Source: a virus. Taken from it: a stretch of 27,677 nucleotides of DNA. Both the position numbers and the translations under genes were made by a program. The notes below the pieces were generated by a model. The model worked only from the letters and a program-made list of their open reading frames with translations. It did no database searches and was not told where the DNA came from. Shown one piece after another: positions 1-18,076 of the stretch (its first letter is position 1; each line of letters begins with the position of its first letter). The stretch is taken from IMG/VR virus record IMGVR_UViG_3300031629_000056, positions 1 to 27,677 of that record; one strand, 5' to 3'.

Positions 1-314
1 TCTAAAGGGTTATGTAAGGTAATACCTTAAACATATAACGTTAGTTAACGTAAAGGTCTTAAAGGTCTTAAAGGTCTAAAGGTCTTAAAGATCTAAAGGT
101 CTAAAGGGTTATGTAAGATATTACCTTAAACAGATCAAACATTAGGCATAGAGGTTGACAGGTCTTAAAGATCTAAAGATCTAAAGGTCTAAAGGGTTAT
201 GTAAGGTAATACCTTAAACATATAACGTTAGTTAACGTAAAGGTCTTAAAGGTCTTAAAGGTCTAAAGGTCTTAAAGATCTAAAGGTCTAAAGGGTTATG
301 TAAGATATTACCTT
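1..314. repeat. Long tandem repeat, 127-bp exact copies 187 bp apart
   Basis: Positions 1-127 recur exactly at 188-314; the first copy may continue left of the window. Each copy contains an imperfect palindrome TAAGGTAATACCTTA, a dyad ACGTTAGTTAACGT, and several TCTAAAG or TCTTAAAG units spaced 8-9 bases apart. I count about ten TCTAAAG units in 1-294. No credible reading frame occurs. T7 carries arrays of a short CCTAAAG-type repeat next to its terminal repetition, so a terminus or packaging-related role is possible. Replication-origin iterons or regulator operators are the other options. The sequence gives no decision between them. Confidence 0.9.
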
Positions 315-335
315 TAACATAGCCTTGGTTAACGT

Positions 336-398
336 AAAGGTCTTAAAGGTCTTAAAGATCTTAAAGGTCTTAAAGATCTTAAAGGTCTTAAAGGTCTC
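336..398. repeat. Seven tandem 9-bp units (AAAGGTCTT type)
   Basis: Seven consecutive 9-bp units begin at 336, 345, 354, 363, 372, 381 and 390. Units alternate between AAAGGTCTT and AAAGATCTT, and the last ends in CTC. Because 9 is a multiple of 3, the array stays open in frame and spells a Lys-Val/Ile-Leu repeat, but it lacks coding signs and I treat it as DNA structure. It continues the TCT(T)AAAG theme of the preceding long repeat. Confidence 0.9.
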
Positions 399-429
399 AA
401 AGGGTATATATGTATATGACCGTTACAGT

Positions 430-450
430 AGGGGCCCTTTTTGGAGGCCG
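430..450 (+). repeat. 21-bp inverted repeat, left arm
   Basis: The reverse complement of these 21 bases matches 2460-2480 at 20 of 21 positions, with 16 perfect in a row. The 9-mer TGCTATCAG follows this arm at 451-459 and precedes the other arm at 2451-2459, in direct orientation. The pair encloses the regulator gene, attP and the GIY-YIG nuclease gene. Confidence 0.8.
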
Positions 451-539
451 TGCTATCAGAGTGTTTCAAGCGTTTGCAAGATGGGGGGGAAATGCCCTAT
501 AGGCACATTGAAAGGATATGTTTATCATCGATTGTATCA

Positions 540-588
540 ACACATAGAACAAGTAGAAAACTTTAGTAATCCAAACGCATACATTGAG
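540..588 (+). repeat. 49-bp direct repeat, copy 1
   Basis: This stretch matches 1457-1505 at 48 of 49 positions; the only difference is A574 against C1491. Copy 2 ends 16 bases before the ATG of the GIY-YIG gene, and this copy lies upstream of the regulator gene. A shared promoter or 5' leader is the simplest reading. The two copies also flank attP. Confidence 0.85.
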
Positions 589-801
589 CGTCCTTAACGC
601 AAAACACGGAGAAACAGTATGGAGAAACACCCAGAATGATAAGAGTCATCAGAAATGAACTATCCCAACTCAATAAGAGCGGGCTTGCCTTCCATCGTTG
701 TGAAGAAAGCGACGTGATACACTACTGCCTAATACTACGCAGGAGTTGTTACGATGTATTTATCACAAGGATCAAGCCGTTCTCTAACAGGAGAGAACAC
801 C

Positions 802-1188
802 ATGAAGACCAAGAGTATAGAAAGCAGGACAGCAAGCGCACTGGAGTTCTTGCGGTCCATAGTGGCGCGTCCGAGGTTGGAAGCACAGCAAGTATCCATG
901 TTGTTGACCTTGCAAGACCTCCCAAGCGAAGGAGTCACAATGCAAGCACTAGGTAAAGCCTGCAATGCGTCACAGTCTTTCATCTCGCGTAACTGCCAAG
1001 CTTTCGGGGCTAAGTCGCTCGGTAAGCGCCTAGTGGGCCTTAGGATAGCAGATGACGACCCACGCTATAGAACTGTATTCCTCACAGAAGAGGGCAGAGC
1101 TTCGATGCAGCTATTCGTTGGCATCATAGAAGGCACTAGCGAAGTCCCCAGAGGCACTCGCCACGCAGTTGACAGGCGCACTAAGTGA
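802..1188 (+). CDS. Small winged-helix (MarR-like) putative transcriptional regulator
   Basis: This 128-residue protein has a helix-turn-helix region around residues 30-70 (core GKACNASQSFISRNCQAFG) followed by a wing-like segment and TEEGRASMQLF. That is the pattern of MarR-type winged helices, where a beta-wing carrying an Arg/Asp-rich turn (here ADDDPRYRTVFL) precedes the last helix. The ATG at 802 is preceded by AGGAGAG at 789-795, an ideal ribosome site; an in-frame ATG at 754 also has an AGGAG and would add 16 residues. It stands alone between the left repeats and attP, upstream of the integrase, so a role in lysogeny or early gene control is plausible. No phage CI- or Cro-type repressor was seen elsewhere in the window. 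The family assignment is from motif shape only. Confidence 0.6.
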   Translation: MKTKSIESRTASALEFLRSIVARPRLEAQQVSMLLTLQDLPSEGVTMQALGKACNASQSFISRNCQAFGAKSLGKRLVGLRIADDDPRYRTVFLTEEGRASMQLFVGIIEGTSEVPRGTRHAVDRRTK

Positions 1189-1276
1189 CCTCGCGTATAC
1201 ACTTGGGTAGCTGTGTATCATCGTGTCCACCACCCTCTCGCATAGGCCCTTGTAGATATGCCAGAGGTATTGATAA

Positions 1277-1326
1277 TGGCTCCGCCTGCTGGGCTCGAAC
1301 CAGCGACCCATTGATTAACAGTCAAT
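1277..1326 (-). other. attP: attP core: 3' part of a tRNA-Asn(GTT) gene
   Basis: Read on the minus strand, this stretch gives an anticodon arm with a 5-bp stem (1310-1314 with 1322-1326) and loop CTGTTAA carrying anticodon GTT. A 5-nt variable loop, a perfect 5-bp T-arm (1288-1292 with 1300-1304) around a GTTCGAG-type loop, the acceptor 3' strand AGGCGGA, discriminator G and CCA follow. The D-arm and 5' acceptor strand are absent, so it cannot be a working tRNA. Integrases of temperate phages commonly use the 3' half of a tRNA gene as crossover site and carry this copy to restore the gene. The integrase gene lies 1.6 kb downstream. The host site would be a tRNA-Asn whose 5' acceptor strand reads TCCGCCT. 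Confidence 0.88.
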
Positions 1327-1363
1327 CGTCAAATCACCCCACCTCACACGGTGCGTACATAGT

Positions 1364-1384
1364 GGGACACAGCGTTTGTGTCCC
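1364..1384. repeat. Perfect 8-bp inverted repeat beside attP
   Basis: GGGACACA (1364-1371) pairs with TGTGTCCC (1377-1384) around a 5-base loop. GTGTCC recurs at 1387-1392 and GACACAG at 1417-1423. Clustered short repeats about 40-100 bp from the attachment core fit arm-type integrase or excisionase sites, or an operator. There is no T-run after the hairpin, so a terminator is unlikely. Confidence 0.6.
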
Positions 1385-1456
1385 ATGTGTCCACTCTTGT
1401 GGGCCAAATGGGGTAGACACAGATAACGGTGTACGGTTTAATACGCGAATACGCAT

Positions 1457-1505
1457 ACACATAGAACAAGTAGAAAACTTTAGTAATCCACACGCATACA
1501 TTGAG
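1457..1505 (+). repeat. 49-bp direct repeat, copy 2
   Basis: This is the second copy of the repeat at 540-588, with one mismatch. It ends just before the GAGG ribosome site (1509-1512) of the GIY-YIG nuclease gene, so it covers the position of that gene's promoter or leader. Confidence 0.85.
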
Positions 1506-1521
1506 AAACGAGGTTCATCAC

Positions 1522-2433
1522 ATGGCTAAGTTTATAGATCTAACAGGGCAGAAGTTTGGGTATCTCACTGTGGTGTCGCGTGGGCCTAATGACAAGCACC
1601 ACAAAGCCACTTGGTATTGTGTCTGTGATTGTGGGAACGATGCGCCCAAATTTATAGCGACTTCGACGCTCAAATCCAATCACACAACTTCTTGTGGTTG
1701 CGCCCAAATAGCTGCCGCTAATTCGCAGGTGGTGGACTTAACAGGGAAGAAGTTTGGGAAGCTCACTGTGGTGTCACAGGGTCCGACCCCTAAGTCTGGG
1801 AAAGCTGTGTGGTATTGTGAGTGTGATTGTGGCAACAAGCCCTCTAAGCCAGTTTTAGGCTTTTCGCTAAAGTCGGGTAAGACCGCATCATGTGGCTGTA
1901 AGTACAAAAAAGTAGGGCAGGCCAAGGTAGCCAAAGCCGCTAAAGATTTCCCAGCTAAGGCCGCCGCTGTGCATGGCGATGGAAAGTATGATTACTCAAG
2001 GGTGTTCTACGCAGGTAATCAATCTGATGTTTCCATAGGTTGTAACACTTGTGGTGCTTATTTCCCGCAGACCCCTAATGTCCACTTGAAGGGTGGTGGC
2101 TGCTCCACATGCGCTGGATACGGCTTCGACCCACTAGCACCAGCCATATTCTACTACGCCCTCCTGCAGCTCCCTAGCGGCCTCACAGCCTACATGATAG
2201 GCATCACCAATAGAACCTTTGAGGCCCGCTACAGCGCTGCTGACAGGGCTCACATGGATCTCATAGACTTCATTGAGTTCCCTGTAGGCGCTGATGCCCT
2301 GGCTCTTGAGACTCAACTCAAGCAGGACAACAGGCACCTGCTGTACACCGGAGAGATGCCGATCAACAAAGGCAACACCGAGGTGTATGTGGTCGACATA
2401 GAGCCCTTCGAACGGGCCTTAGAGGCCGCATAG
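1522..2433 (+). CDS. GIY-YIG homing-type endonuclease with duplicated N-terminal zinc-ribbon-like domain
   Basis: This 303-residue protein starts at an ATG with GAGG 9 bases upstream; a TTG at 1501 would overlap the 49-bp repeat. Residues about 5-60 and 70-125 are two copies of a domain reading DLTG.KFG.LTVVS, then WYC.CDCGN, then SCGC. That cysteine pattern is common at the N-terminus of phage HNH and GIY-YIG homing nucleases. A DUF723-like segment with CNTCGAYF and CSTCAG follows. The C-terminal part has YYALLQ...AYMIGITNRTFEARY and later ALETQL, matching GIY-YIG with the conserved Arg and Glu. Homing nucleases cut unoccupied alleles and spread by repair. The gene sits between attP and the integrase and has its own upstream 49-bp repeat, so it is probably a later insertion. 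Target is unknown. Confidence 0.75.
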   Translation: MAKFIDLTGQKFGYLTVVSRGPNDKHHKATWYCVCDCGNDAPKFIATSTLKSNHTTSCGCAQIAAANSQVVDLTGKKFGKLTVVSQGPTPKSGKAVWYCECDCGNKPSKPVLGFSLKSGKTASCGCKYKKVGQAKVAKAAKDFPAKAAAVHGDGKYDYSRVFYAGNQSDVSIGCNTCGAYFPQTPNVHLKGGGCSTCAGYGFDPLAPAIFYYALLQLPSGLTAYMIGITNRTFEARYSAADRAHMDLIDFIEFPVGADALALETQLKQDNRHLLYTGEMPINKGNTEVYVVDIEPFERALEAA

Positions 2434-2459
2434 ACCTCCCTTGAAACCCTTGCTATCAG

Positions 2460-2480
2460 CGGCCTCCAAAAAGGGACCCT
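2460..2480 (-). repeat. 21-bp inverted repeat, right arm
   Basis: This arm is the inverted partner of 430-450 with one mismatch. It overlaps a short palindrome AAAGGGACCCTTT and lies 35 bp before the small gene starting at 2515. It may therefore be an operator or promoter element. Confidence 0.75.
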
Positions 2481-2514
2481 TTATACCAACACAGAAACTT
2501 TAAGGGATACCGCA

Positions 2515-2712
2515 ATGAGCGCAATAGGAAGTTTATTAGGATCAGGATTTACAGTTGCCGAGGCGATAGGAGTGTTAGACGCAAGGCAGCAGGACGCATG
2601 GAGTCGAAGTATCACAGACGATGTTGACTTCACCCACGGCTTACGCTTCGGCATGGGCATAGAGCAAATCGATGAATACACCACAAGACGAGGAGTAACA
2701 CATGACAACTAA
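2515..2712 (+). CDS. Small hypothetical protein
   Basis: This is a 65-residue protein that I do not recognise. It starts at an ATG with a weak AAGGGA ribosome site at about 2501-2506. The sequence has a hydrophobic Gly-rich N-terminus (MSAIGSLLGSGFTVAEAIGV) that is too short to call a membrane segment, then a mixed polar part. It is followed by an 11-base overlap with the next gene, which suggests real translation and coupling. It lies in the accessory zone upstream of the integrase, where excisionase or regulatory genes are often found, but it shows no helix-turn-helix that I can identify. Confidence 0.55.
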   Translation: MSAIGSLLGSGFTVAEAIGVLDARQQDAWSRSITDDVDFTHGLRFGMGIEQIDEYTTRRGVTHDN

Positions 2713-2914
2713 AGAACTAAACATGGCTTCCCTCTGGGAGAGGTGCGCTGACCTAGAAGAGCAACTCTACTTCAAGAAGGCAGAGATCAGGGACCTATCT
2801 CTTGAGATAGAAGCAGCCAATTCCAAGGTGTCTAGGCTAGAAGCTCTTTCAATCGACCTCAGTCACCAAGCGCGACAGCTAGCTCAATACGCCCAATCTC
2901 TGAGGGCACTATGA
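2702..2914 (+). CDS. Small coiled-coil protein upstream of integrase
   Basis: This 70-residue protein is predicted from heptad spacing to be largely a coiled coil: leucine or isoleucine recurs through ADLEEQLYFKKAEIRDLSLE and SKVSRLEALSIDL. A GAGGAG ribosome site precedes the ATG. Its stop overlaps the integrase start as ATGA, so it is probably translationally coupled to the integrase. The position would suit an accessory recombination factor, but nothing in the sequence shows DNA binding and I assign no function. Confidence 0.6.
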   Translation: MTTKELNMASLWERCADLEEQLYFKKAEIRDLSLEIEAANSKVSRLEALSIDLSHQARQLAQYAQSLRAL

Positions 2915-4050
2915 AACTTACAACAGAACTCATCAATCGCATAGAGCTCCCCAGAGCTGGCCGGAAGTACATAACAGACAGCATCACACGGGGACTCACC
3001 TTGGAGTTGACACCCAAAGGGAAGAGACTTCTCGACGTGTACCGCCGTGAAGATCGCACTAAAGCTCGTGATGTCCTCGGAGTGTGGCCCATAGTCTCTC
3101 TCCAAGCTGCCATAGGTGCCTGTGAGGCCCGTAAAGACCTCCAGTTGAACGATAAGGATAAACCCTTTGTGATTCCCTACGTTGCACATGATGTCTCTGA
3201 GAGAGGCTCAACGGAGCTTATAGGGCTTGTGGGTGCGTATGAGCTATCACACGTTCGCACCTTGTCACCCTCGTCACAAGCCCTGTATACGGCCATGCTG
3301 AAGCTCTTCACGGACAAGAATCAGTACATCGAGAGGGTAACGATGAGGTCTCTGCGGCTCCAGATGGATGATATTGGGGTATCAACTCCAGTACAGGCCA
3401 ACAGGTTCTGTGCGGTTGTGAGTGGTTTCCTCCAATGGGCTGTTGAGCGCGGGTATTGTGACAACAACGTCGCTCGCGGGCTGCGCCGTTTCAAAGAGCA
3501 ACCTTCCACACGCTACTTGGCAGAGCCAGAGCTTACCAAACTAGCGAGTGCCATAGAGTCATTTAGAGGGCAATGCGGACTCAAGTTATACATCCAAATA
3601 GCCCTGGCGACTCTAGCTAGGAGCAATGAGATAGAGGGTATTAAGTGGAGCGAGGTAAACGGTAACGAATGGCTCATTCCTGCTGATAGAACCAAATCGA
3701 ATAGAGAGCACCTTATGTTCCTTCCAGACTCAATAGCGGCTTGCATAGAAGACCGCAAGCACCAGGGTTTTGAGGAAATCATTACGGTGAAAAGCTCTTC
3801 TGTTCGCCAAGCTTTAAAACGCATCGCAAAGAAGCAAGGTATCACTCACTTTAGCAATCACGATCTTCGTCGAACGTCTTCAACTTTGCTGGCAAAAGAG
3901 GGGATCGACCAAGATACCAGAGCACGTATGCTCAACCACTCAATAGGAGGTACAACCGAAAGGCACTATACATCTTACAACTTTCAAGCTGAGAAACACG
4001 CTGCCGCATTGAAACTGTGGGCAGTTTTAGAACGCACTGGGATACTATAA
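2911..4050 (+). CDS. int: Tyrosine recombinase, phage integrase
   Basis: This 379-residue integrase catalyses site-specific recombination between attP and the host chromosome. The N-terminus (residues about 15-70, RGLTLELTPKGKRLLDVYRR and LGVWPIVSLQAA) resembles the DUF4102 arm-binding domain typical of tRNA-targeting integrases. A core-binding domain follows at about 100-190. Catalytic residues are visible as R237 (LARSNEIEG), H317-D-L-R320, H343 (MLNHSIGG) and the nucleophile Y353 (RHYTSY). The start overlaps the upstream coiled-coil gene by ATGA. The phage RNA polymerase gene follows after only 15 bp, an arrangement also known in integrase-bearing T7-like phages of marine bacteria. The length is normal for the family and no lesion is seen. 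attP lies 1.6 kb upstream rather than directly adjacent. Confidence 0.93.
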   Translation: MKLTTELINRIELPRAGRKYITDSITRGLTLELTPKGKRLLDVYRREDRTKARDVLGVWPIVSLQAAIGACEARKDLQLNDKDKPFVIPYVAHDVSERGSTELIGLVGAYELSHVRTLSPSSQALYTAMLKLFTDKNQYIERVTMRSLRLQMDDIGVSTPVQANRFCAVVSGFLQWAVERGYCDNNVARGLRRFKEQPSTRYLAEPELTKLASAIESFRGQCGLKLYIQIALATLARSNEIEGIKWSEVNGNEWLIPADRTKSNREHLMFLPDSIAACIEDRKHQGFEEIITVKSSSVRQALKRIAKKQGITHFSNHDLRRTSSTLLAKEGIDQDTRARMLNHSIGGTTERHYTSYNFQAEKHAAALKLWAVLERTGIL

Positions 4051-4065
4051 AGGGGTAACACATAT

Positions 4066-6546
4066 ATGAAAGATTCAGCACAGGTCAATGACCAGCAAGC
4101 TCCAGAAGTGAGCGAGAATCTAATACAAAGAGAGTACGCATTAGAAATGGAGGCCGTCGATAGGGCCAAATTGAACATAGAGAAACGCATCACCACCAGA
4201 GGGTTCGCTGAAGGCTCAGTAACTGCTAGGGCGGCACTCCGCAACAGTATCTCTCTCACCACAGTTTCTTTACAGAATTGGCTTGATAATCAGAGAAAGC
4301 TTAAACGTAAGAGCAGAGTGTACCGCAACTTGCTCCTCTTAGAGCCAGAGCAAATGGCTTTCATCACAGGACGTGTCTTGCTGGACCAAGCGTTCAAAGA
4401 GAAATCAAACTTCACCGGACTGTGCGCCAAAGTTGGGAGGCAAGTGAAGGATGTAGCAGAGTATGCCATATTCAAAGAGGCCAACAAGGGTTTAGCGAGC
4501 ACGATTGAGAAGCAGCTACTCCACACTACATCTTCGAAGCACTCTAGGGCAGTGACCTCTGCCGCTATGAAGTCAGCGGACTTTGAGGGCATCCAGTGGA
4601 ACCATTCGGATATTGTTACACTAGGTGTCGTATTGGCCCAGTGCTTCGTTGAATCTACGGATCTTTTTGAGCGAATAGTTCTTCGAGGTGGAAAGAAGAC
4701 CACAGCATACCTAGTACCCACTGTGACCCTTCAGATACTGTTGGCTCAAGCCGACATACGAGACTCTCTAATACTTCCATTCCACTACCCGATGCTCGTG
4801 AAGCCCACAGATTGGACCACGATGGAAAATGGGGGCTACTTGGACCAAGAGTTGCACGGAGTGCGTCTTATTAAAGGGGATGCTTCTTTAGCCACGAGGC
4901 TAGACGCCACGGACACCTCGAAAGTGAGGAGTGCTGTCAATAACATACAGTCCACTGGGTGGCGTATAAACTCTCTTGTGCTTGACGTTCTAAGGATACT
5001 CAATGACGCTGGAGACGGCTCGGCAGGTCTTGCAAGCAGTCTGCCGCCGCCCATACCAGAGAAGCCTTGGCCTGTGATGTCAAAGGAGGAATGGACCACT
5101 TGGAAGGAGGATACCCAAAACAAGGAAGAGTTTGATAAGTGGCGCTACCTAGCTAAGAACGCCTATCGAGATCAAAAGAAGTGGGCGGGTCATAGGCTGG
5201 TCCAGCAGCAGCAAATCATGGTGGGCGAGAAGTTCGTTGACGAAACTGCCATCTACTTCCCGCATTCCTTGGATTTCAGGGGACGAGTGTACCCGGTTGC
5301 TGGCATGGGCAGTGTGAACCCTCAAGGAAATGACGCTGGGAAAGCTTTGCTGGAATTTGCTGAAGGTTTGCCATTAGGTCCAGATGGGGCTAAGTGGCTC
5401 GCCATACATCTAGCCAACACTTACGGTAACGACAAGTGCTCTTTTTATGACCGAGAGTTGTGGGCGCAAATGAACTCTGATTGGATATTGGAGTGCGCTG
5501 AAGACCCCATCAATAACACTAGGTGGCATGAGGCTGATAAGCCTCTATGCTTTTTGGCTACGTGTTTCGAGTGGCGGGGGTATCACAAGGATGGTGATGA
5601 TCACATCAGCAGAACCTGCGTGGCTATGGACGGCTCTTGCAGTGGCTTGCAGCACTACGGTGCGATGCTATTGGACGAAGGGACTTGCCGTGCTGTGAAT
5701 GTCATCCAAACGGGTGATTCACCACAGGACGTATACTCAGTAGTCCTAAACAAAGTCAAGATGCTAGTGCAGAAAAACCCAGACCCTCTAGCAATGCAGT
5801 GGGTTACAAGGCTTCACCGCAATATATGCAAGCAGCCAATAATGACGAGTGTTTATTCTGTGACACAGCGTGGCATCACTCTGCAAATAGAAACATGGAT
5901 TGGAAAGCTCGTTAAGAAAGGAGAAATCGAACCGTTCGTTGACTGCACTAACATGCAAGCCGCGCTGTTTTTAGCGCCGATAGTCTTGGAAGCTATTGAT
6001 GACGAACTGACAGCAGCAACGTGCGCTATGAACTGGCTGAAGAACGTCTGTACGGTTGTTAGTTCAACAGGGTCCGCATTGGAGTGGCAAACTCCGGTGG
6101 GATTTACGGTATTCCAAAGCTATCGAGACTTGAAAGCAGAAGTCGTTAAGATCACTTGGGCTGGTAAGCGGCAGAAGTTAAATATAAAAACACAAAGCAA
6201 GGAGCTAGCACCCAAAAAGTGTGTCAACGCTATAGCAGCTAACTTTGTCCATTCAATGGACGCATCTCATTTGATGCTGGTAGCTAATGTAGGGAAGGAT
6301 AATGGAATAGATTCATTTGGATTCATCCATGATTCCTTTGGCACACACCCCAGCGCCACCACTCTACTTAACGAAGTTATAAGAGAGTGCTTTATCGCGC
6401 AATACGAAGGTGACACCCTCGCTGATTTTTATGAGCAAATCAGGGAGCAGGTAGAGCCAGAAGTGTTCGAGCAAATAGAACCACCACCCAGGCAAGGGAA
6501 AATGGAACTACAGGCTGTCAGAGACAGTCTTTTTTTCTTTGCGTAA
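4066..6546 (+). CDS. Single-subunit T7-type DNA-directed RNA polymerase
   Basis: This 826-residue polymerase (T7 gp1 has 883) would transcribe phage genes from phage-specific promoters. Motif A is MDGSCSGLQHYGAML with catalytic D522. Motif B is KQPIMTSVYSVTQRG with K589 and Y597, at the same 8-residue spacing as T7 K631 and Y639. Motif C is FIHDSFGTH with D756. The protein ends in FFFA, like the FAFA end of T7 RNA polymerase. The region of residues about 680-735 corresponds to the promoter specificity loop and differs strongly from T7, so the T7 promoter consensus should not be expected here. An AAGGGG ribosome site lies 10 bases before the start. The gene follows the integrase closely, so host transcription through int may also switch it on. 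Confidence 0.97.
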   Translation: MKDSAQVNDQQAPEVSENLIQREYALEMEAVDRAKLNIEKRITTRGFAEGSVTARAALRNSISLTTVSLQNWLDNQRKLKRKSRVYRNLLLLEPEQMAFITGRVLLDQAFKEKSNFTGLCAKVGRQVKDVAEYAIFKEANKGLASTIEKQLLHTTSSKHSRAVTSAAMKSADFEGIQWNHSDIVTLGVVLAQCFVESTDLFERIVLRGGKKTTAYLVPTVTLQILLAQADIRDSLILPFHYPMLVKPTDWTTMENGGYLDQELHGVRLIKGDASLATRLDATDTSKVRSAVNNIQSTGWRINSLVLDVLRILNDAGDGSAGLASSLPPPIPEKPWPVMSKEEWTTWKEDTQNKEEFDKWRYLAKNAYRDQKKWAGHRLVQQQQIMVGEKFVDETAIYFPHSLDFRGRVYPVAGMGSVNPQGNDAGKALLEFAEGLPLGPDGAKWLAIHLANTYGNDKCSFYDRELWAQMNSDWILECAEDPINNTRWHEADKPLCFLATCFEWRGYHKDGDDHISRTCVAMDGSCSGLQHYGAMLLDEGTCRAVNVIQTGDSPQDVYSVVLNKVKMLVQKNPDPLAMQWVTRLHRNICKQPIMTSVYSVTQRGITLQIETWIGKLVKKGEIEPFVDCTNMQAALFLAPIVLEAIDDELTAATCAMNWLKNVCTVVSSTGSALEWQTPVGFTVFQSYRDLKAEVVKITWAGKRQKLNIKTQSKELAPKKCVNAIAANFVHSMDASHLMLVANVGKDNGIDSFGFIHDSFGTHPSATTLLNEVIRECFIAQYEGDTLADFYEQIREQVEPEVFEQIEPPPRQGKMELQAVRDSLFFFA
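6515..6540 (+). terminator. Possible weak terminator in the RNA polymerase tail
   Basis: CTGTC-AGA-GACAG (6515-6527) forms a 5-bp hairpin followed by a T-rich run to 6540. The same bases encode the conserved C-terminal end of the RNA polymerase, so the T-run may simply be Phe codons. If real, it would separate int-RNAP transcription from the replication operon. Confidence 0.3.
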
Positions 6547-6588
6547 TGAAACCCGTATACACATATATAATCACTTCGAGGAATCAAA
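6547..6588 (+). promoter_or_regulatory. Intergenic leader of the replication operon, possible promoter
   Basis: This is the only non-coding gap in the replication arm before the operon starts. It is AT-rich, contains TATAAT at 6566-6571 and a GAGGA ribosome site at 6578-6582. I find no good -35 at 17 bp, so either the host consensus is poor or a phage-type promoter lies here. Confidence 0.35.
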
Positions 6589-7290
6589 ATGGAACAAGTA
6601 ACATTTAAGAAAACAGTATCTCCAAAGGGCACAGTCGGGCCTTACTGTAAGCTAACTGTCGCCGACGTATACGAAGGTAAGACAGAATTCAAATGCGCTG
6701 TGGTATTTGACCCAGCCGAGGAAGGCGTGAACGATTACATCAAAGATATCGAAGCGGCAGCAGACGCTGGCTATGCTAAAGGTATCGCAGAGATAGATAA
6801 GGACCTTGAGACGGCCAAAGGAGCAAAGCTTAACTCCCTCAAAGAGCGCAGGGATAACCTGATTCGTTCATGCCCCGTGAAAGACGAAGTTGCGGAAGAT
6901 GGAAGCCCAACGGGACGTTACCTCGTCAATTTCAAAAGGACCGCAAAAGGTGTGTATCGGTTCGGAAAGGATCAAGGTAAATCTTGGAGCATCAAACTCC
7001 CAATCTTTGATACTAAGAAGAAACCAATCACAGAATCTGAAGGAGAAATCTACGAAGGAAGCACACTCCGCATCCAAGCACTGCTCAAGACATACACGAT
7101 GCCGACTAGAGCTGGTGTATCCATGAACATCCGAGCGGTCCAGGTTATTAACTTGATTAGCAGAGCTGATGGCGGTGGCGATGCTAGCGGCTTCGACATT
7201 GAGGAAGGCTACGAAGCAAGCGAAGTCGAGAGGGTAGTTTCTAAAGGAGAACCATCCGAGAGCTATCAAGACGACAGTTCAGACTTCTAA
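6589..7290 (+). CDS. gp2.5-like single-stranded DNA-binding protein
   Basis: This 233-residue protein (T7 gp2.5 has 232) would coat single-stranded DNA and bind the phage polymerase and helicase during replication. It begins with an OB-fold-like strand pattern (VTFKKTVSPKGTVGPYCKLT), contains the region RYLVNFKRTAKG, and ends in an acidic tail SESYQDDSSDF with a terminal Phe. That tail is the hallmark of gp2.5 proteins. It is the first gene of the coupled operon, and its stop shares a base with the next start. Length, tail and position all agree. Confidence 0.88.
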   Translation: MEQVTFKKTVSPKGTVGPYCKLTVADVYEGKTEFKCAVVFDPAEEGVNDYIKDIEAAADAGYAKGIAEIDKDLETAKGAKLNSLKERRDNLIRSCPVKDEVAEDGSPTGRYLVNFKRTAKGVYRFGKDQGKSWSIKLPIFDTKKKPITESEGEIYEGSTLRIQALLKTYTMPTRAGVSMNIRAVQVINLISRADGGGDASGFDIEEGYEASEVERVVSKGEPSESYQDDSSDF

Positions 7291-7676
7291 TGCAACGAGT
7301 GCCAAGAACTAGAGCAGGAGGGCGCTGGACGGAATCAAGATTCTTTGGGTTCATCCGGTCTGCCCTCCGCTCTGCGGCCATGCGTTACCCACCAAAGTTT
7401 GATGCTCTAGCAGCAGCTAAACGAACTAAGCCACAAGGAAAACCAGGCAAGCACAGGTTTGAATACCAGTGTGCTTACTGCCTTGATTGGTTTGAAATGA
7501 AAGACGTAGCAGTTGACCACATAGTACCCGCTGGGTCTTTGAAGTCCTTCAATGACATAGCTTCATTCGCGGAGAGGCTCTACTGCGAACCCGATGGCCT
7601 TCAGGTGTTGTGCAAATCACCTTGCCACCAACGCAAAACTAACGCCGAAAGGAAAGCGGCAAAGGAATCCAAATGA
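7290..7676 (+). CDS. HNH endonuclease in the T7 endonuclease I slot
   Basis: This 128-residue protein carries a compact HNH fold: CAYCLDWF (first zinc pair), VDHIVPAGSL (catalytic HNH His after Asp) and LQVLCKSPCHQRKTNAE (second zinc pair and last His). It is basic at both ends, as DNA-binding proteins often are. T7 has the structurally unrelated endonuclease I between genes 2.5 and 3.5, where it resolves junctions and degrades host DNA. Here an HNH protein occupies exactly that slot, so it may be a non-homologous replacement or a free-standing homing nuclease. It overlaps the preceding stop (TAATG) and the following start (ATGA). Confidence 0.85.
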   Translation: MQRVPRTRAGGRWTESRFFGFIRSALRSAAMRYPPKFDALAAAKRTKPQGKPGKHRFEYQCAYCLDWFEMKDVAVDHIVPAGSLKSFNDIASFAERLYCEPDGLQVLCKSPCHQRKTNAERKAAKESK

Positions 7677-8089
7677 AACGAGCAAAACTTAAAACGGAGG
7701 AAGTCACACGAATAATCGTATCAGCCACCATGACTATGGACGATGAGGACGCCCTGGAATCGTTGGTGATAGAGCATTGTTGCCACACGCCAGAGAAGCT
7801 TGGGTGTCACTACTACATACAGAAGAACGGAGACGTACTGACACCTGTGAGCCATGAAGAACGCGGCAATTGGTTTTCTCGCTATGGTAGCACAGCAATA
7901 TTCATCGTCGTTGAAGGTGGACTAGATGATGACGGTCAGTTATCCAACAACTTCATGGCTGGTCAGATTTGCTGGATAAAGGGCATCGTGAAGACATTAA
8001 AGAAAATATACCCAAACGCTGAGTTAACTCTGCACCGAGAGCTATTTCTCGGCGTCAACCCAGTATTAACTAAGGAGCAAATAGAATGA
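7673..8089 (+). CDS. T7 lysozyme (gp3.5) homologue lacking amidase active site
   Basis: This 138-residue protein aligns along its length with T7 gp3.5, the N-acetylmuramoyl-L-alanine amidase that also binds and inhibits T7 RNA polymerase. Landmarks are RIIVSATMT (T7 IFVHCSAT), LGCHYYIQKNGDV (T7 VGYHFIIKRDGTV), IFIVVEGGLDDDGQLSNNF (T7 IGVCLVGGIDDKGKFDANF) and LTLHRELFLGVNP (T7 LRAHHEVAPKACP). By this alignment the first zinc His is deleted, Tyr46 is C45, Lys128 is G127 and the zinc Cys130 is N129; only the His equivalent to 122 (H121) remains. It should therefore have no amidase activity. The frame is intact, with coupled starts on both sides, so it is under selection for another role, most simply RNA polymerase control. 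The alignment was made by eye. Confidence 0.8.
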   Translation: MKRAKLKTEEVTRIIVSATMTMDDEDALESLVIEHCCHTPEKLGCHYYIQKNGDVLTPVSHEERGNWFSRYGSTAIFIVVEGGLDDDGQLSNNFMAGQICWIKGIVKTLKKIYPNAELTLHRELFLGVNPVLTKEQIE

Positions 8090-8334
8090 AAAAGACAACA
8101 GTATCTAAGATAAAGCGCCACCCAAAAACTGGAACACAAGTAGCAACAATCTTGAGTCACCTTCAGTCGGGTAGGTCCATCAATCAGGTTTCTTCTGCTG
8201 GTCTGTACGCCATACCGCAGTTGTCCGCTGCTGTACGTCACCTTCGCCAGATGGGCTGGAACATATCCAAGCAAACCCATACTGGTGTCAGAGGGGCCTA
8301 CGCAGAATACAAGCTAACCACTAAGGGAGAATAA
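8086..8334 (+). CDS. Small helix-turn-helix (HTH_39-like) protein
   Basis: This 82-residue protein has the pattern of the small winged-helix proteins found in many phage replication operons. It reads QVATILSHLQSGRSINQVSSAG, then QLSAAVRHLRQMGWNI, then a basic wing ending AYAEYKLTTKGE. These are usually annotated as helix-turn-helix domain of unknown role. The start overlaps the preceding stop as ATGA, and the primase-helicase gene follows 1 bp after its stop. A DNA-binding role in replication or transcription is inferred; no target is known. Confidence 0.7.
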   Translation: MKKTTVSKIKRHPKTGTQVATILSHLQSGRSINQVSSAGLYAIPQLSAAVRHLRQMGWNISKQTHTGVRGAYAEYKLTTKGE

Positions 8335-8335
8335 A

Positions 8336-10000
8336 ATGTCCGACTTCAGCCACCATGAGCCGTGCCCTAAGTGCTCTAGCAGCGATGGGTTCGCTAGGTA
8401 CACAACAGGATCGGGGTTCTGCTTCAGCGGCGGCTGCGGTCACTGGGAGCCCTCTGATGCCGACTATGTACCTGTAGTTCCAGAGGGTAGCTCTAAGCGC
8501 ATGAAGCTCCCAGAGCTAGGTGAGTATAGAGGGATACCACGCAGAGGCATCGACGAGGCTACTTGCAGAAAGATGCGGTACAGCATGAGCGAGTATTTCG
8601 TTAAAGGCCCTGATGGTTGGGAGCCTATCCCAGCGCATGTTGTCCACGTCCCAGATCAAGACGGACAACCTGTAGCAGCTAAGGTAAGGATGCCCGGAAA
8701 GGAGTTTAGATTCGTTGGAGACACGAAGGAGGCGGGTCTGGTGTTTCAGAACATCTGGCCTAGAGGCGGCCTCAAGCTCACGGTCTGCGAAGGAGAGATA
8801 GATGCCCTATCTGTCTCCCAGATCAATAACAATAAATACGCAGTTGTGAGTTTACCCAATGGTGTCAGCAACGCAGCAGAAGTTTGCGGTAGGTCGCGTG
8901 ACTACATCAATAGTTTTGACGAAGTGATCCTGATGTTTGACCAAGACGAAGCTGGCAGGGAGGCCGCGAGAGAAGTAAGTAAGCTCTTTAAGCATGCCAA
9001 GATCGCAGAGCTTCCACTCAAGGATGCCAACGAGATGCTGGTCGCTGGCAGAGGGCAGGAAGTTGTCTCTGCTGTCTTCAACGCTCAACCGTGGAGTCCT
9101 TCTGGCGTCCTTACCCTCGCCAGTTTGAAGGAAGAAATTCTAAAGCCAGTTGAGTGGGGTAGCCCTTGGGTTTTCCCTACGCTTAACGAGATGACGTTTG
9201 GGAGGCGAAGGGGCGAGCTGGTTACGCTAGGCGCTGGGACAGGCATCGGTAAGACCAGCTTCATCTTGCACCAGGCTATTGCTGATATTAAAAGCGGCAC
9301 AGAGAAGGTCGCACTCTTTCTTTTGGAGCAGAACCCAACAGAGACCAGCAAGCGTCTAGCGGGTGTGATGGACCACAAGATGTATCACCTACCACCAGAC
9401 GCAGGTAAATATTCGGCAGAAGAGCTGGAGGCTTCAGTGGACAAACTGATAGCGATGGAAGACGTGTTCCTGTTTAGCCACTTTGGAAGTAAAGACTTCG
9501 ACAGTATTGCCGAGAACATCAGGTGGCTCGCGCTTACTCACGGTGTCACGCAGGTGTACCTAGACAATCTCACCGCACTAACAGCTCACGCCTCTGACGA
9601 GCGTCGGGAGCTAGACAAGGTTTGTGAGCAACTGGCATCGCTTGCCCAAGAGCTGAATATCCACATGGTGGTTGTATCTCACCTAACCACACCAGCTAAA
9701 GGCAGCCACGAAGAGGGAGCCAGAGTGAAGGCTAGAGAGTTCAGAGGGAGCCGCAGCGTTGCTATGTGGTCCCACTTCTTGATTGGACTGGAGCGTCACA
9801 CGCAGCATGAGGACCCCTTTGTTCGCTCAGTGACTACGCTGCGATGCTTGAAGGATCGGAACACTGGACGAGGCAATGGCAAGACGGTCCTGATGGGATT
9901 CGATGAAGCTACCGGAGTTCAGTACGAACTTTCGCCACAAGAGATTGAAATGTACCACGAGGCTCTCAACGGGGGCCAATCATTTAGCGAGGATTTCTAA
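8336..10000 (+). CDS. gp4-like bifunctional DNA primase-helicase
   Basis: This 554-residue protein (T7 gp4 has 566) makes RNA primers and unwinds the fork ahead of the phage polymerase. The zinc ribbon is C10-x2-C13...C29-x4-C34, the element that recognises primer sites. The Toprim primase core shows VCEGEIDALS with E152 and MFDQDEAG with D202 and D204. The RecA-type helicase domain has Walker A GAGTGIGKTSF with K306, a Walker B-like VYLDNLT and a VVVSHL motif. The C-terminus is acidic (SFSEDF), as in T7, where it contacts the DNA polymerase. It is coupled to its neighbours on both sides. No catalytic residue appears to be missing. Confidence 0.96.
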   Translation: MSDFSHHEPCPKCSSSDGFARYTTGSGFCFSGGCGHWEPSDADYVPVVPEGSSKRMKLPELGEYRGIPRRGIDEATCRKMRYSMSEYFVKGPDGWEPIPAHVVHVPDQDGQPVAAKVRMPGKEFRFVGDTKEAGLVFQNIWPRGGLKLTVCEGEIDALSVSQINNNKYAVVSLPNGVSNAAEVCGRSRDYINSFDEVILMFDQDEAGREAAREVSKLFKHAKIAELPLKDANEMLVAGRGQEVVSAVFNAQPWSPSGVLTLASLKEEILKPVEWGSPWVFPTLNEMTFGRRRGELVTLGAGTGIGKTSFILHQAIADIKSGTEKVALFLLEQNPTETSKRLAGVMDHKMYHLPPDAGKYSAEELEASVDKLIAMEDVFLFSHFGSKDFDSIAENIRWLALTHGVTQVYLDNLTALTAHASDERRELDKVCEQLASLAQELNIHMVVVSHLTTPAKGSHEEGARVKAREFRGSRSVAMWSHFLIGLERHTQHEDPFVRSVTTLRCLKDRNTGRGNGKTVLMGFDEATGVQYELSPQEIEMYHEALNGGQSFSEDF

Positions 10001-10233
10001 TGAACACAAAAGCGCACAAGGAAGCAATTGCAGAGGACCACAACAGGCAATACAAGGGGCAGACTGCATCAGAGGACGAGGAGATGGCGCGTAAGGTCAT
10101 TGAGCTGATCCAATCTGAGCTAGAGCCAGAGACTCTAAAAGGTTGGCGTGATTCCTGTCGAAGCATTGAGAACCGTGTGAAGAAGAGCTTGGGCCTTCAG
10201 AGTAAGTATAGGGCTGATGGGACGGTGAGATAA
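10000..10233 (+). CDS. Small hypothetical protein between helicase and HNH gene
   Basis: This is a 77-residue, charged, probably helical protein that I do not recognise. It begins in the stop codon of the helicase gene (TAATG) and ends sharing a base with the next start, so it is translated as part of the operon. The N-terminal half is acidic (AEDHNRQYKGQTASEDEEMA) and the C-terminal half is basic (RVKKSLGLQSKYRADGTVR). Such short charged genes fill the space between genes 4 and 5 of T7-like phages without known functions. Confidence 0.65.
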   Translation: MNTKAHKEAIAEDHNRQYKGQTASEDEEMARKVIELIQSELEPETLKGWRDSCRSIENRVKKSLGLQSKYRADGTVR

Positions 10234-10757
10234 TGTCACACAAATGCAAGGAGAAGAAGGCTGCTTACATGAAGCAGTGGAGAGCAGATAACAAGGAATC
10301 CATAGCTGCTAAAAAGAAGAAGTGGCAAGCAGATAACAAGGAAGCACAGGCTGCTTATAATAAGATTTACATGAAGCAGTGGAGAGCAGATAACAAGGAA
10401 TCCATAGCTGCTAAAAAGAAGCTTTATAATCTAAAAAATTCTTATGGTTTAACCGAGGAAGACTACCAGAGCATATTAGAAGCGCAGAATGGTTGCTGCC
10501 CGATCTGTCTGAAACATCACACCGAGTTTACCAGGAGGCTTGCAGTCGATCATATACACGATCGTGCTGCTTCGGGTTTGGATTATAACAAAGGCGTATC
10601 TGGCGCTGTCCGTGGCCTTCTCTGCGATAGCTGCAACACAGGCATCGGAAAGTTAGGAGACTCACTGGATAACTTCATACGGCTCATAGCTTACAAGATG
10701 GGCAGCGACTTATGCCCATTCACTTTAACTGAACGAGATAAAAACGAGAGCGACTAA
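10233..10757 (+). CDS. Endonuclease VII-type HNH nuclease with N-terminal repeats
   Basis: This 174-residue protein has a C-terminal recombination endonuclease VII domain: CCPICLKHH, then LAVDHIHD, then GLLCDSCNTGIGKLGD. It shows the zinc cysteines and the catalytic DH pair. In T4 the family resolves branched DNA; free-standing copies in phages are often homing nucleases. The N-terminal 65 residues are three helical repeats of the form YMKQWRADNKESIAAKKK, with a shortened middle copy, likely a basic DNA-binding surface. At DNA level 55 bp are exactly duplicated. The gene lies directly before the DNA polymerase gene, with coupled start and stop. Confidence 0.85.
   Translation: MSHKCKEKKAAYMKQWRADNKESIAAKKKKWQADNKEAQAAYNKIYMKQWRADNKESIAAKKKLYNLKNSYGLTEEDYQSILEAQNGCCPICLKHHTEFTRRLAVDHIHDRAASGLDYNKGVSGAVRGLLCDSCNTGIGKLGDSLDNFIRLIAYKMGSDLCPFTLTERDKNESD
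10265..10421 (+). repeat. Internal duplication, 55-bp exact copies 102 bp apart
   Basis: Positions 10265-10319 are repeated without mismatch at 10367-10421, with a diverged third unit between them. The repeats stay in frame and encode the helical repeats of the HNH gene. Perfect identity points to a recent duplication or gene conversion. Confidence 0.92.
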
Positions 10758-12733
10758 TGCTGATCTTCGACCTAGAAACGGACGGCCTGCTTGACACTGT
10801 CAGCACCATCCACTGCCTGCACCTCTATGATACTGACAATCCTGACCTTGGAGTGCAACGATATAACGATCACTCCTACCACGCAACAGGGACAGTCTCA
10901 GAGGGCGTTCAGGCTCTAGGTAGGGCTGATGAGATATTAGCTCACAACGGAATAGGCTTCGACTATCTCGTGCTCGACAAGCTATACCCTGTTTGGAATC
11001 TAGAGAAAAAACCAAAACGGCTTGATTCACTGATTCTATCCAGAGTTTTATTCACAGAACTAAAGGACATGGACTTTGAAGCTCGACGCCGTGGGTATTG
11101 GATTTCCTCTGAGAAAAAGAACCCTGTACCGGAGAAGATGGGTGGCATCATTGGCTCACATTCGCTGAAGGCATGGGGCCTGCGTCTTGGAAACAACAAG
11201 GCAGACTATGACCCAAGAGATGAGTGCGAGCCTGGGCTTACAGTCAGCGCAGCTTGGAAGCAAGTGGGCTGGACAGAGCGGATGGATGACTACTGTTGTC
11301 AGGATGTATTGGTAACTGTCCAGCTCGTAGAGATGTTGCAGTCTAAGAACCTCTCTCCGATCTGCTCAGACCTTGAGCATCAGTTTGCAACCATCATCAA
11401 CAGACAGGAACGCTTCGGGTTCAAGTTTGACATCCCTAAAGCTCAACAGCTCCATCGCAAGCTGGCCATTCGCAGCACCCAACTGGAAGAAGAGCTAAGA
11501 GCTTTGATCCCGAATTGGTGGACTGCGGATGGCAGTAACGCGCAGAGGATGCCGAAGGTGAACAACAAGACACGGCACGAGGTTAAGGGAGCCGCTTTTA
11601 CGAAAGTAACTTGTCGAACATTCAACGCTGGCTCCACGCAGCAGATAGGGGACAGGCTGCAGGCTATCTATGGATGGAAGCCTGAGCTGTATGGAAACGA
11701 CGGCTCACCCACATGCAGCGACGAGATCCTAGCGACCCTTGATTACCCAGTGGTCCCAATGATCCGAGAGTATCTCATGGTCTCTAAGCGCCTGGGACAG
11801 CTCGCCCTTGGTACGCAGGCACTATTGAAGAAGGTGAACAAGAATGATGGGAGGATGCATGGACGATGTAATACCGGAGGAACAGTCACAGGTAGATGTT
11901 CACACAGCTCTCCGAACGTGGCGCAGACTCCAGCCAACGGTGTCCCATATGGCAGGGAGTTCCGCAATCTTTATACAGTCGGGTCCGACAGGAAGCTTGT
12001 CGGTGCTGATGCTGCGGGTCTCGAGCTGCGGACGCTTGCGCATTACATGGCAGCGTACGACGGCGGGGAATATGCTGCTGAGGTCGTTGACGGCGATGCC
12101 CATTTTAAGACGCTTCAAGCCCTTGAACTCGTTAGTGGTGAAAGAGACAGACATAGCGCAGCACATGAAAAAGCTCGAAGCCTTGGGAAGGTTTGGTTGT
12201 ACAGCTTATTGTATGGATGCGGAGAAGATTTGTCGGGCCTCAACTATAAGAAAATCTTTGAAGTTATACACGGTCAGGAACCAGCGGGCAGTCTTATTTC
12301 ATTGGGACGAAGATCGCGTAAAGCTTTCAAGAAGAACTTGAGCGCTCTAGCTGACCTAGAGAAGGCAGTCAAAGAGAAGGCAACGGTAGCTAAAAGAGTC
12401 AGAGGTTTGGACGGCAGGTTTATATCCTGTCGCTCATCTCACTCAGCTCTTAACTCGCTGCTTCAATCTGCTGGAGCTATCGTAATGAAGCAGGCCCTGG
12501 TTGAGTTAGACAACTCGCTTCAGGCACAGGGTCTGCGGCCAGGTAACGATTATGAGTTCACTCTAAATTGCCACGACGAATGGCAAGTAGACGTAGCTGA
12601 TCGAGATGGGCTGCCTGAGCTTGTAGCTGAGGAGAGCTGCACTGCAATGGTAAGGGCTGGGAAGTTCTTCAAGATGCGCGTGGCTATTGAAGGTGAAGCA
12701 CAGATCGGCAACAGCTGGGCCGAAACTCACTAG
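10757..12733 (+). CDS. Family A (T7-type) DNA polymerase with proofreading exonuclease
   Basis: This 658-residue polymerase (T7 gp5 has 704) is the replicative enzyme. The 3'-5' exonuclease begins at once with FDLETDG: D5 and E7 fall at the same residue numbers as in T7. Polymerase motif A is GADAAGLELRTLAHY with D418. Motif B is RSLGKVWLYSLLYGCG with R474, K478 and Y482, matching T7 R518, K522 and Y526. Motif C is NCHDEWQVDV with D607. Y482 is the site equivalent to E. coli Pol I Phe762, whose identity has been linked to lifestyle in marine phages. The start overlaps the preceding HNH gene (TAATG), and an HNH gene also follows. Confidence 0.97.
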   Translation: MLIFDLETDGLLDTVSTIHCLHLYDTDNPDLGVQRYNDHSYHATGTVSEGVQALGRADEILAHNGIGFDYLVLDKLYPVWNLEKKPKRLDSLILSRVLFTELKDMDFEARRRGYWISSEKKNPVPEKMGGIIGSHSLKAWGLRLGNNKADYDPRDECEPGLTVSAAWKQVGWTERMDDYCCQDVLVTVQLVEMLQSKNLSPICSDLEHQFATIINRQERFGFKFDIPKAQQLHRKLAIRSTQLEEELRALIPNWWTADGSNAQRMPKVNNKTRHEVKGAAFTKVTCRTFNAGSTQQIGDRLQAIYGWKPELYGNDGSPTCSDEILATLDYPVVPMIREYLMVSKRLGQLALGTQALLKKVNKNDGRMHGRCNTGGTVTGRCSHSSPNVAQTPANGVPYGREFRNLYTVGSDRKLVGADAAGLELRTLAHYMAAYDGGEYAAEVVDGDAHFKTLQALELVSGERDRHSAAHEKARSLGKVWLYSLLYGCGEDLSGLNYKKIFEVIHGQEPAGSLISLGRRSRKAFKKNLSALADLEKAVKEKATVAKRVRGLDGRFISCRSSHSALNSLLQSAGAIVMKQALVELDNSLQAQGLRPGNDYEFTLNCHDEWQVDVADRDGLPELVAEESCTAMVRAGKFFKMRVAIEGEAQIGNSWAETH

Positions 12734-12741
12734 GAGGAAGT

Positions 12742-13191
12742 ATGGAAGTTTTAAGATTATGCAAGAGGTGTGAGCGTAAGGCGCATAACGTGGACGAGCT
12801 AGAATATTTTACTAAGAGGAAAGACTCCAAGCATGGGCGCAATAACTTATGCAAACAATGCGCCAATGATCACGGAAAAGGAAAAGGAAGAGACTGGAAG
12901 ACAGACCACCAAACTAGGAAGCGTTATGGCGTAGGCGTTGCAGAGTACAAGAAACGCATGGCTACAAGCGCATCCTGTGAGTGCTGTGGGTCAGAAGAAA
13001 ACCTCTGCTATGACCACTGCCATGAAACCATGAAGTTCCGTGGCGTTCTGTGTAGGTCATGTAACGCAGCCATAGGCCAGCTAGGTGACAGACTAGAGGA
13101 TATTCGGAGAGCGGTTGCCTACCTTGAGAGGGCTTTAGTACGCCCTGACATAAGTGAACAAACATACACAGAGGAATACGCAAATGACTGA
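12742..13191 (+). CDS. Endonuclease VII-type HNH nuclease downstream of polymerase
   Basis: This 149-residue protein has an N-terminal zinc-ribbon-like part (CKRCERKAHN and NLCKQCANDHGKGKG) and an endonuclease VII-type HNH domain: CECCGSEENLCYDHCHE, then RGVLCRSCNAAIGQLGD. The DH pair and four cysteines are present, so it should be active. GGAGGAA lies a few bases before the ATG. It differs from the HNH gene on the other side of the polymerase except in the core motif, so the two are not a simple duplication. It could resolve recombination intermediates or act as a homing nuclease against polymerase-region alleles. Confidence 0.85.
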   Translation: MEVLRLCKRCERKAHNVDELEYFTKRKDSKHGRNNLCKQCANDHGKGKGRDWKTDHQTRKRYGVGVAEYKKRMATSASCECCGSEENLCYDHCHETMKFRGVLCRSCNAAIGQLGDRLEDIRRAVAYLERALVRPDISEQTYTEEYAND

Positions 13192-13912
13192 GAAAGACTT
13201 ACGACTAGATTACCTAGCGGCCCGACTGTGCTCTGCAAGCTACCCAAGCCAGCAGCATCGCATGGACTTCCTGATGGACGACTTCATACACGAAAGCGAC
13301 AATAGCCACGATTTCGATTGCTGGGTCGGGGAAGGTGCTGAACATAACTTCGCTGTGTTCAGAGGGTACAAGGCTACGACTACGCTTTCATGGAGTGACA
13401 TCGGATCAATGGTAGTTGATTACTTCCGCCCTCTACCGGGTAACGACCTAAAACTACATCCACCATTCTTTAGTCTTTGGAGAAAAATGAGTCCAAAGGT
13501 TTTTCAAGCAACCCACACAATCCAATACACCCAGGCTCAAGAGCGTGGTGAATCCAAGCCTTGGGTCTTTACTGGACACGGACTGGGTGGCGCTATGGCA
13601 ACTATAGCAGCGGCCAGCTTCAAGCCAGCCACTCTTGTCACCTTTGGGGCACCTCGCGTGGGCGGTAAGAAGTTCGTTGAGGTTGTAGACGATTCCTGCA
13701 CACACCGACGGTGGCTTTCTGCTCGTGACAGAGGCGCAATGATTCCTTTGGGCGGCCACCAGATGCACAGCGGCGACCTGTTCTACATCGCCTCTAACGG
13801 CACCTTAGAACGCAACCCATCCGCAATGATGCAAGTGCTTGACCATGACAAGTGGTTTGAACGGCACGGCATTGAATCATACGTAGACTTTATAGAGGAA
13901 TCATTTGCATGA
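13184..13912 (+). CDS. Class 3 lipase-like protein with Gly at the nucleophile position
   Basis: This 242-residue protein has the Lipase_3 alpha/beta-hydrolase layout: early FAVFRGYKATTTLSWSDIG (usual FRGT), then PWVFTGHGLGGAMATIAAAS, then LVTFGAPRVGGKKF, then a charge-relay region RDRGAMIPL and a late HSGDLFYIASNG. In active members the elbow is GHSLGGA; here residue 133 is Gly (codon GGA), two substitutions away from any Ser codon. It is therefore probably not a conventional lipase. No signal peptide is visible, so it acts inside the cell. GAGGAA at 13171-13176 supports the ATG at 13184 over an upstream in-frame ATG. It overlaps its neighbours by ATGA-type junctions within the replication operon. 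The function is unknown. Confidence 0.75.
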   Translation: MTEKDLRLDYLAARLCSASYPSQQHRMDFLMDDFIHESDNSHDFDCWVGEGAEHNFAVFRGYKATTTLSWSDIGSMVVDYFRPLPGNDLKLHPPFFSLWRKMSPKVFQATHTIQYTQAQERGESKPWVFTGHGLGGAMATIAAASFKPATLVTFGAPRVGGKKFVEVVDDSCTHRRWLSARDRGAMIPLGGHQMHSGDLFYIASNGTLERNPSAMMQVLDHDKWFERHGIESYVDFIEESFA

Positions 13913-14082
13913 CACCACCAAAGACACGCGAAGAGGCACAGCGCCTTCTGGAAGTACCACACTGCGCCACACAGGTTGTTATAGATGAACCCATCATGCT
14001 TTTCTTGGATATTGATAACGCTTGTATGGAGATCGTTAGGCAGGCCGATGGCAAGCATGCCAAGAGGGAGCACAAGCCATGA
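13909..14082 (+). CDS. 57-residue hypothetical protein
   Basis: This short gene begins in an ATGA overlap with the lipase-like gene and ends in an ATGA overlap with the exonuclease gene, and the frame is open throughout. These junctions are the main support. The product starts MTPPKTREEAQRLLEVPHC, has a central VVIDEPIMLFLDIDNACMEI segment and a basic tail. Nothing in it points to a known family. Confidence 0.7.
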   Translation: MTPPKTREEAQRLLEVPHCATQVVIDEPIMLFLDIDNACMEIVRQADGKHAKREHKP

Positions 14083-14825: not shown

Positions 14826-15340
14826 ACGACCCAACGCCAGACGAATGGACAGCAGCATCACGCACTCACCCGGTTGGAAGCCGAGAGTGGTATCAAGAAA
14901 AGGAAGAGGAGGAATACCCAAGCTACTTCAAGGGTCGATCATCAGCCTCTTATGTTCCTGAAGATTACGTGGCCCCTAGTGCGTCTGAAGGTAACCCGAA
15001 GGCCCGTGTTGGGGCCCTGAAGGTCCCTATGCACTTAGTGCCACCTGTAGCTACTGTCCACCTCGCTATGGCTCTCAAAGATGGCGCTAAGAAATATGGG
15101 GCATTCAACTACAGATCGGGGAAAATCAATGTCAGCACTTACATCGGCGCTATCCATCGTCACCTCGCAGCTTACCAAGATGGTGAAGACTTTGCTGCTG
15201 ATAGCGGCGTTCACCACATTGCTTCTGTCTTGGCTGGGGGTGCTATTTTGTTGGACTGTCTTTCAATGGGTAACCTGGTTGACGATAGACCAGTACCAAG
15301 CAATGCGGCCAAGCTCATCGAAGAATGGAGAGACAAATGA
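14795..15340 (+). CDS. dATP/dGTP diphosphohydrolase-like (DUF5664) protein
   Basis: This 181-residue protein carries the pattern of the phage dATP/dGTP diphosphohydrolase N-terminal-like family. That pattern is KVPMHLVPPVATVHLAMALK, then DGAKKYGAFNYR, then YIGAIHRHLAAYQDGEDFA, then GVHHIASVLAGGAILLDC. The His and Asp/Glu pairs are candidate metal and phosphate ligands. The N-terminal 55 residues are acidic and low in structure. Relatives would hydrolyse purine dNTPs; in some phages such enzymes accompany 2-aminoadenine DNA, but no PurZ-like gene is in this window. It overlaps the exonuclease gene by 31 bp and ends in ATGA with the next gene. Confidence 0.75.
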   Translation: MDTKRPRRSLNDPTPDEWTAASRTHPVGSREWYQEKEEEEYPSYFKGRSSASYVPEDYVAPSASEGNPKARVGALKVPMHLVPPVATVHLAMALKDGAKKYGAFNYRSGKINVSTYIGAIHRHLAAYQDGEDFAADSGVHHIASVLAGGAILLDCLSMGNLVDDRPVPSNAAKLIEEWRDK

Positions 15341-15700: not shown

Positions 15701-15708
15701 GACTAAAG

Positions 15709-15765: not shown

Positions 15766-15773
15766 GTTAAAGA

Positions 15774-18060: not shown

Positions 18061-18076
18061 ATATCAATTCCTATTG

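Follow-up and report, generated by a model that had tools for sequence, protein, structure and literature searches.

A probable attachment site formed by the 3' part of a tRNA-Asn(GTT) gene in an uncultured phage with T7-like early genes

Why does a viral genome carry the 3' part of a tRNA gene, without its 5' half, upstream of an integrase gene? The question is raised by a 50-base tRNA-like block in a linear IMG/VR virus record of 27,677 bases, the whole of which was analysed and is called here the window. The block occurs a single time in the window, and a reading made from the sequence alone had taken it for an attP that is the 3' part of tRNA-Asn(GTT).

1277-1326, - strand: attP core, bases 27-76 of tRNA-Asn(GTT), from the anticodon stem to CCA; exact in 41 complete genes

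In the order of the - strand the block comprises the anticodon arm ATTGA-CTGTTAA-TCAAT (anticodon GTT), the variable loop, the T-arm, the acceptor 3' strand, G73 and CCA. The predicted folding of this fragment alone, as RNA, is unremarkable. ARAGORN and Rfam call no tRNA gene in the window, as expected for a fragment without its 5' half. A scan of ~85,000 genomes, one per species, returned the exact 50-mer at 41 loci, all of them complete 76-base tRNA-Asn(GTT) genes, while shuffled sequence gave no match at up to 3 mismatches. The search against bacterial tRNA genes called for by the sequence-only reading thus finds the full core, and it bears out both the identity of the block and the absence of its 5' half: sequence identity ends exactly at tRNA base 27, with no further identical base 5' of the block in any of the 41 loci, and extends past CCA by 0-4 bases, which is the chance level. 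The block reproduces a stretch of a genuine chromosomal tRNA gene without change and runs to one end of that gene, as a tRNA-type attP does.

Neighbourhood of the core in the window and in related phages

The core lies between a regulator gene and an integrase gene, in a region with the following coding features, some of which are shared with a related viral contig, G144.

754-1188, + strand: MarR/winged-helix-like regulator beside attP (phrog_9665 transcriptional regulator; weak MarR match; 51% identical to a homologue at the same place in G144)
1522-2433, + strand: endonuclease-like gene between attP and integrase (phrog_374/681)
2702-2914, + strand: small conserved ORF directly before the integrase (38% identical to a homologue before int in G144)
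2911-4050, + strand: tyrosine integrase of P4/CP4 type (PF00589, 1.5e-20)
4066-6546, + strand: T7-like RNA polymerase (phrog_414, 3e-216)

The integrase anticipated downstream of the core is therefore present. It has the full catalytic set R237, K262, H317, R320, H343 and Y353, which is kept in G144. Its N-terminus resembles the CP4-like integrase 3jtz (profile match 4.6e-5), a P4-type protein with an N-terminal arm-binding domain; the likeness is remote, the window integrase having no PF13356 match and that of G144 matching below the curated cut-off. The product of the small ORF preceding it is possibly an accessory (excisionase-type) protein, a function suggested by position only. Core and integrase are 1.6 kb apart with the endonuclease-like gene in between, which counts against the attP assignment. 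By eye, the product of this intervening gene, which has no homologue in G144, shows zinc-finger-like repeats and a GIY-YIG-like C-terminus. Three more HNH-like small ORFs, also recognised by eye and with homologues in relatives, are found among the replication genes (7290-7676, 10233-10757 and 12742-13191).

Several repeats are found in the same region. A 49-nt direct repeat (540-588 and 1457-1505, 98% identical), not found in G144, has one copy on each side of attP and may act as a phage promoter or as a site for a regulator. A 21-nt inverted repeat (430-450 and 2460-2480, 95% complementary) surrounds the block of regulator, attP and endonuclease genes. Positions 1-400 of the window hold tandem AAAGGTCTT-type repeats, a 132-nt copy of which recurs after 187 nt.

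Relatives were identified among viral contigs through the capsid protein. Single-sequence searches of these contigs with the integrase and the RNA polymerase gave no relatives, and a profile built from two integrases added a single remote sequence. The exact 50-mer had no match in viral contigs because the core of the relative differs at its last four bases. This relative, G144 (IMGVR_UViG_3300002137_000205), is a 40-kb contig with a 938-bp end overlap of 99.8% identity. Beyond the two genes listed above, it shares with the window the integrase (41% identity), the RNA polymerase (55%) and the capsid protein (70%). Its core matches 46/46 nucleotides of the same tRNA, that is 46 of the window's 50, and is kept although the flanks have diverged; it is oriented as in the window and flanked by regulator and integrase, with less than 300 bp separating it from the latter. 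G144, a metagenome contig, is the only core-bearing relative known, which weakens the case for attP. A second relative, G148 (40.6 kb, 141-bp end overlap), has window-like replication and structural genes; this near-complete genome has no integrase and its best core match, 27/50, is background. Other genes are found near its contig end (locus L097, 18624-19523, and locus L098, 798-1547), and its lysogeny block may have been replaced. In this small set of genomes, core and integrase are thus present or absent together.

The conservation in G144 bears on two other origins of the block. It is extremely improbable that the fragment is the decayed remnant of a tRNA gene which the phage once carried as an aid to translation. 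Phages do carry tRNA genes, and in LUZ100 and Lo5R7ANS the integrase has a tRNA-Leu nearby (PMC10134795), yet decay should have left substitutions, whereas the block is identical to host genes at 50/50 positions and that of G144 at 46/46. Its sharp edges at base 27 and at CCA, and its absence where the integrase is absent, also speak against decay. There is equally little reason to believe that the contig is the end of a prophage, with the site being attR or a chimeric join and positions 1-1276 host chromosome. An attR does look like a displaced 3' fragment beside an integrase, and the contig is linear, but the regulator at 754-1188 has a homologue in the corresponding position of G144, a contig with overlapping ends, and the 49-nt repeat is found on both sides of the core. 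The left flank is thus phage DNA rather than host DNA, and the core is surrounded by phage sequence on both sides, as befits an attP.

tRNA-Asn as an integration site in Halieaceae

The exact core is found mainly in Halieaceae, the Luminiphilus family, which accounts for 31 of the 41 loci, in 30 of the 140 family genomes; when up to 3 mismatches are allowed, the site is present in 97 of these 140. The ten exact loci outside the family are, as labelled, five Microbulbifer and five others (Klebsiella, Verrucomicrobiaceae, Kordiimonadaceae and others). The locus labelled Klebsiella pneumoniae (L013) has its exact tRNA-Asn in a tRNA-Val/uvrB neighbourhood like that of Microbulbifer and probably belongs to a mislabelled assembly. 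In nearly all exact-match genomes uvrB adjoins the tRNA-Asn gene.

No match to the capsid protein or the RNA polymerase was found in the 140 Halieaceae genomes, one per species, which counts against the attP assignment; the search for prophages flanked by the core string proposed in the sequence-only reading hence returned none of the window kind. The same genomes encode many integrase homologues, all remote, the best-scoring being ~30% identical. In five of 14 loci taken from the best-scoring ones a tRNA-Tyr, tRNA-Ser or tmRNA is nearby; the rest have no tRNA or tmRNA.

Two other elements do occupy tRNA-Asn. Parahaliea aestuarii (G135) encodes a 425-amino-acid integrase homologous to that of the window over nearly its full length (24% identity, E 2e-14). 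A displaced 3' fragment of tRNA-Asn lies ~150-200 bp from the start of its gene, and the two are oriented to each other as in the window. Phage-type replication genes follow this integrase and a DbpA-like helicase gene lies beyond the tRNA fragment, while the intact uvrB/tRNA-Asn end is on a separate contig; uvrB, tRNA-Asn and DbpA are neighbours in another sequence of this family, L041. A different, 11-kb island is found at tRNA-Asn in genome G033 (locus L110, 2201-13461), with a DNA methyltransferase-like gene and another tyrosine-recombinase-like gene; its integrase has no relation to that of the window detectable by tblastn. These two islands indicate that tRNA-Asn is a used integration site in Halieaceae.

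The assignment of the block as attP is therefore supported by the exact tRNA-Asn matches, the conservation in G144, the absence from G148 and the Parahaliea integrase beside the same tRNA. The further claim that the block pins the integration site holds for the identity of the site; its use is what we infer, no integrated copy having been found. Integrases act in trans, and therefore the distance between int and attP does not alone block recombination; the core is moreover perfect, and the integrase intact with every catalytic residue in place. With these features it is very unlikely that attP is a relic of past integration, no longer efficiently used, for instance because the endonuclease-like gene now intervenes. 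The presence of that gene, the lack of prophages of the window kind in the 140 Halieaceae genomes and the cyanophages that integrate without lysogeny (PMC8776855) are what such a relic could explain.

Proposed recombination and predicted hosts

The attP assignment taken by itself is held with high confidence and integration by the window phage is likely; the phage might also form stable lysogens. It is very probable that the attP core is recombined by the P4-type integrase with the host tRNA-Asn(GTT) gene, by an exchange inside the anticodon loop that rebuilds the tRNA. The P4-type tyrosine integrase would recombine the core with the matching host gene (attB), which would be split on insertion. 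The host would retain the 5' part and its promoter and the phage would donate the 3' part, such that the gene is restored behind the host's own promoter and a working tRNA-Asn is kept. The displaced 3' fragment, adjoining the integrase, would mark the other end of the prophage.

The position of the exchange is suggested by where the identity blocks of four elements set in: at tRNA base 27 for the window, at base 29 for the Parahaliea island, and at base 31 both for G144 and for a solitary relic in genome G018, in all four cases just 5' of the seven-base anticodon loop. Strand exchange is therefore placed within this loop, with the exact cleavage points being inferred. Tyrosine recombinases usually act on a 7-bp overlap with core sites, a layout that the anticodon loop and stem fit (PMC8371274). 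Anticodon-centred sites, with identity running from the anticodon stem/loop as in the window, are the commonest type in Islander (2083 of the 3919 listed islands; PMC4383910). The tRNA-targeted islands of that collection likewise combine a 3' tDNA fragment, from the anticodon arm to the 3' end, with a tyrosine integrase; they are integrated, whereas the window site is a free phage attP on a viral contig (PMC4383910). This kind of attP is well known, indeed textbook, and the window site is a further, well-supported case.

1315-1321, - strand: probable 7-bp crossover (overlap) region, the anticodon loop CTGTTAA enclosed by the inverted repeat of its stem (ATTGA/TCAAT)
1223-1230, + strand: GTGTCCAC, candidate integrase arm-type site of the left arm (motif cluster near the core; tentative)
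1363-1394, + strand: TGGGACACA / TGTGTCCCA / TGTGTCCAC, candidate arm-type sites of the right arm (GGACACA copies; tentative)

Copies of GGACACA/TGTGTCC are found at 1223, 1365, 1377 and 1386 in the window, three of the four being in the right arm, and G144 has two GGACACA copies 10 bp apart beside its core. In both phages the copies are within ~75 bp of the core, and they are tentatively regarded as candidate arm-type sites, the motif having been picked after viewing the sequence. The core flanks of the two phages have more 8-mers in common than random region pairs (P about 0.001), a sharing to which synteny may add.

A single base pair may determine which hosts can be used. Most of the non-exact Halieaceae sites carry a covarying change at stem pair 28:42 (T:A to A:T or C:G). 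Hosts with A28 or C28 would be left with a mismatched anticodon stem after integration, because the host keeps base 28 and the phage brings A42. The usable hosts are thus predicted to be those whose tRNA-Asn has T28:A42, in which the pair is kept: Haliea, Luminiphilus, Parahaliea, HTCC2080 and relatives, and possibly Microbulbifer. The expectation that the exact string gives a direct route to the host holds at family level, chiefly for Halieaceae besides Microbulbifer and a few other groups, and does not extend to the species. Tetranucleotide composition singles out no host, the best correlation, with an 8-kb locus, being 0.52 against 0.86 between the window and G144.

Phage architecture and significance

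Less usual than the attP is the make-up of the phage. The window is made of two halves in head-on orientation: T7-like early and replication genes at 1-15700 on the + strand and structural genes at 15811-27512 on the - strand, which meet at a two-way terminator-like repeat (15704-15769). The structural half is not T7-like and encodes an N4-gp56-type capsid protein and an SU10-type portal; portal and terminase are supplied by contig G151, which overlaps the right end of the window by 750 bp at 99.87% identity. The head-on join is also present in G144, G148 and G150 and is therefore unlikely to be an assembly error.

Like temperate T7-like phages (Autographiviridae), the window has regulator and integrase genes ahead of a T7-like RNA polymerase; unlike them, its head and tail genes are neither T7-like nor codirectional with the early genes. 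The T7-like cyanophages P-SSP7 and S-TIP37 also combine a tyrosine-type integrase with an attP that exactly reproduces a portion of a host tRNA gene, and their integration was shown, with no stable lysogens (PMC8776855). Their site lies downstream of int and matches the first half of tRNA-Leu over 39 bp, whereas that of the window lies upstream of int and is a 50-nt 3' part of tRNA-Asn; the structural genes of the window also set it apart. The order MarR-like regulator, integrase and phage RNA polymerase, with a tRNA sequence near the integrase, is common to the window and to LUZ100 and relatives (PMC10134795), and no stable lysogen of LUZ100 was obtained (PMC10134795). The lack of stable lysogens in the cyanophages and in LUZ100 weighs against the course of events proposed for the window phage. 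The window differs from this group by an attP between regulator and integrase, the endonuclease-like gene between attP and int, and late genes on the opposite strand. By RNA polymerase, the cultured phages nearest to the window are Caulobacter phage S2B (36%) and Mesorhizobium phage Lo5R7ANS (34%), and the two are again among the nearest when DNA polymerase is compared (about 39%). In each of them the integrase precedes the polymerase, as in the window, but their structural genes, with T7-like tail genes, are codirectional with the early genes.

The association of a T7-like early half with an N4-gp56/SU10-type structural half possibly defines an undescribed phage group. A broader proposal, for which doubt slightly outweighs confidence, is that of an undescribed lineage of Halieaceae phages. 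In it, an early half of the temperate T7-like type, with MarR-like regulator, attP, integrase, phage RNA polymerase and replication genes, would be joined head-on to a non-T7 structural half, and its hosts would be set by the single tRNA-Asn stem pair 28:42.

Halieaceae are abundant coastal bacteria (PMC10100682), and no described Halieaceae phage was found in the literature searched. For a phage lineage that is uncultured, the core provides a testable prediction of the host at family level, and the covarying 28:42 pair yields a specific rule as to which hosts could be lysogenized without damage to their tRNA. The window adds one more T7-like early module equipped for integration.
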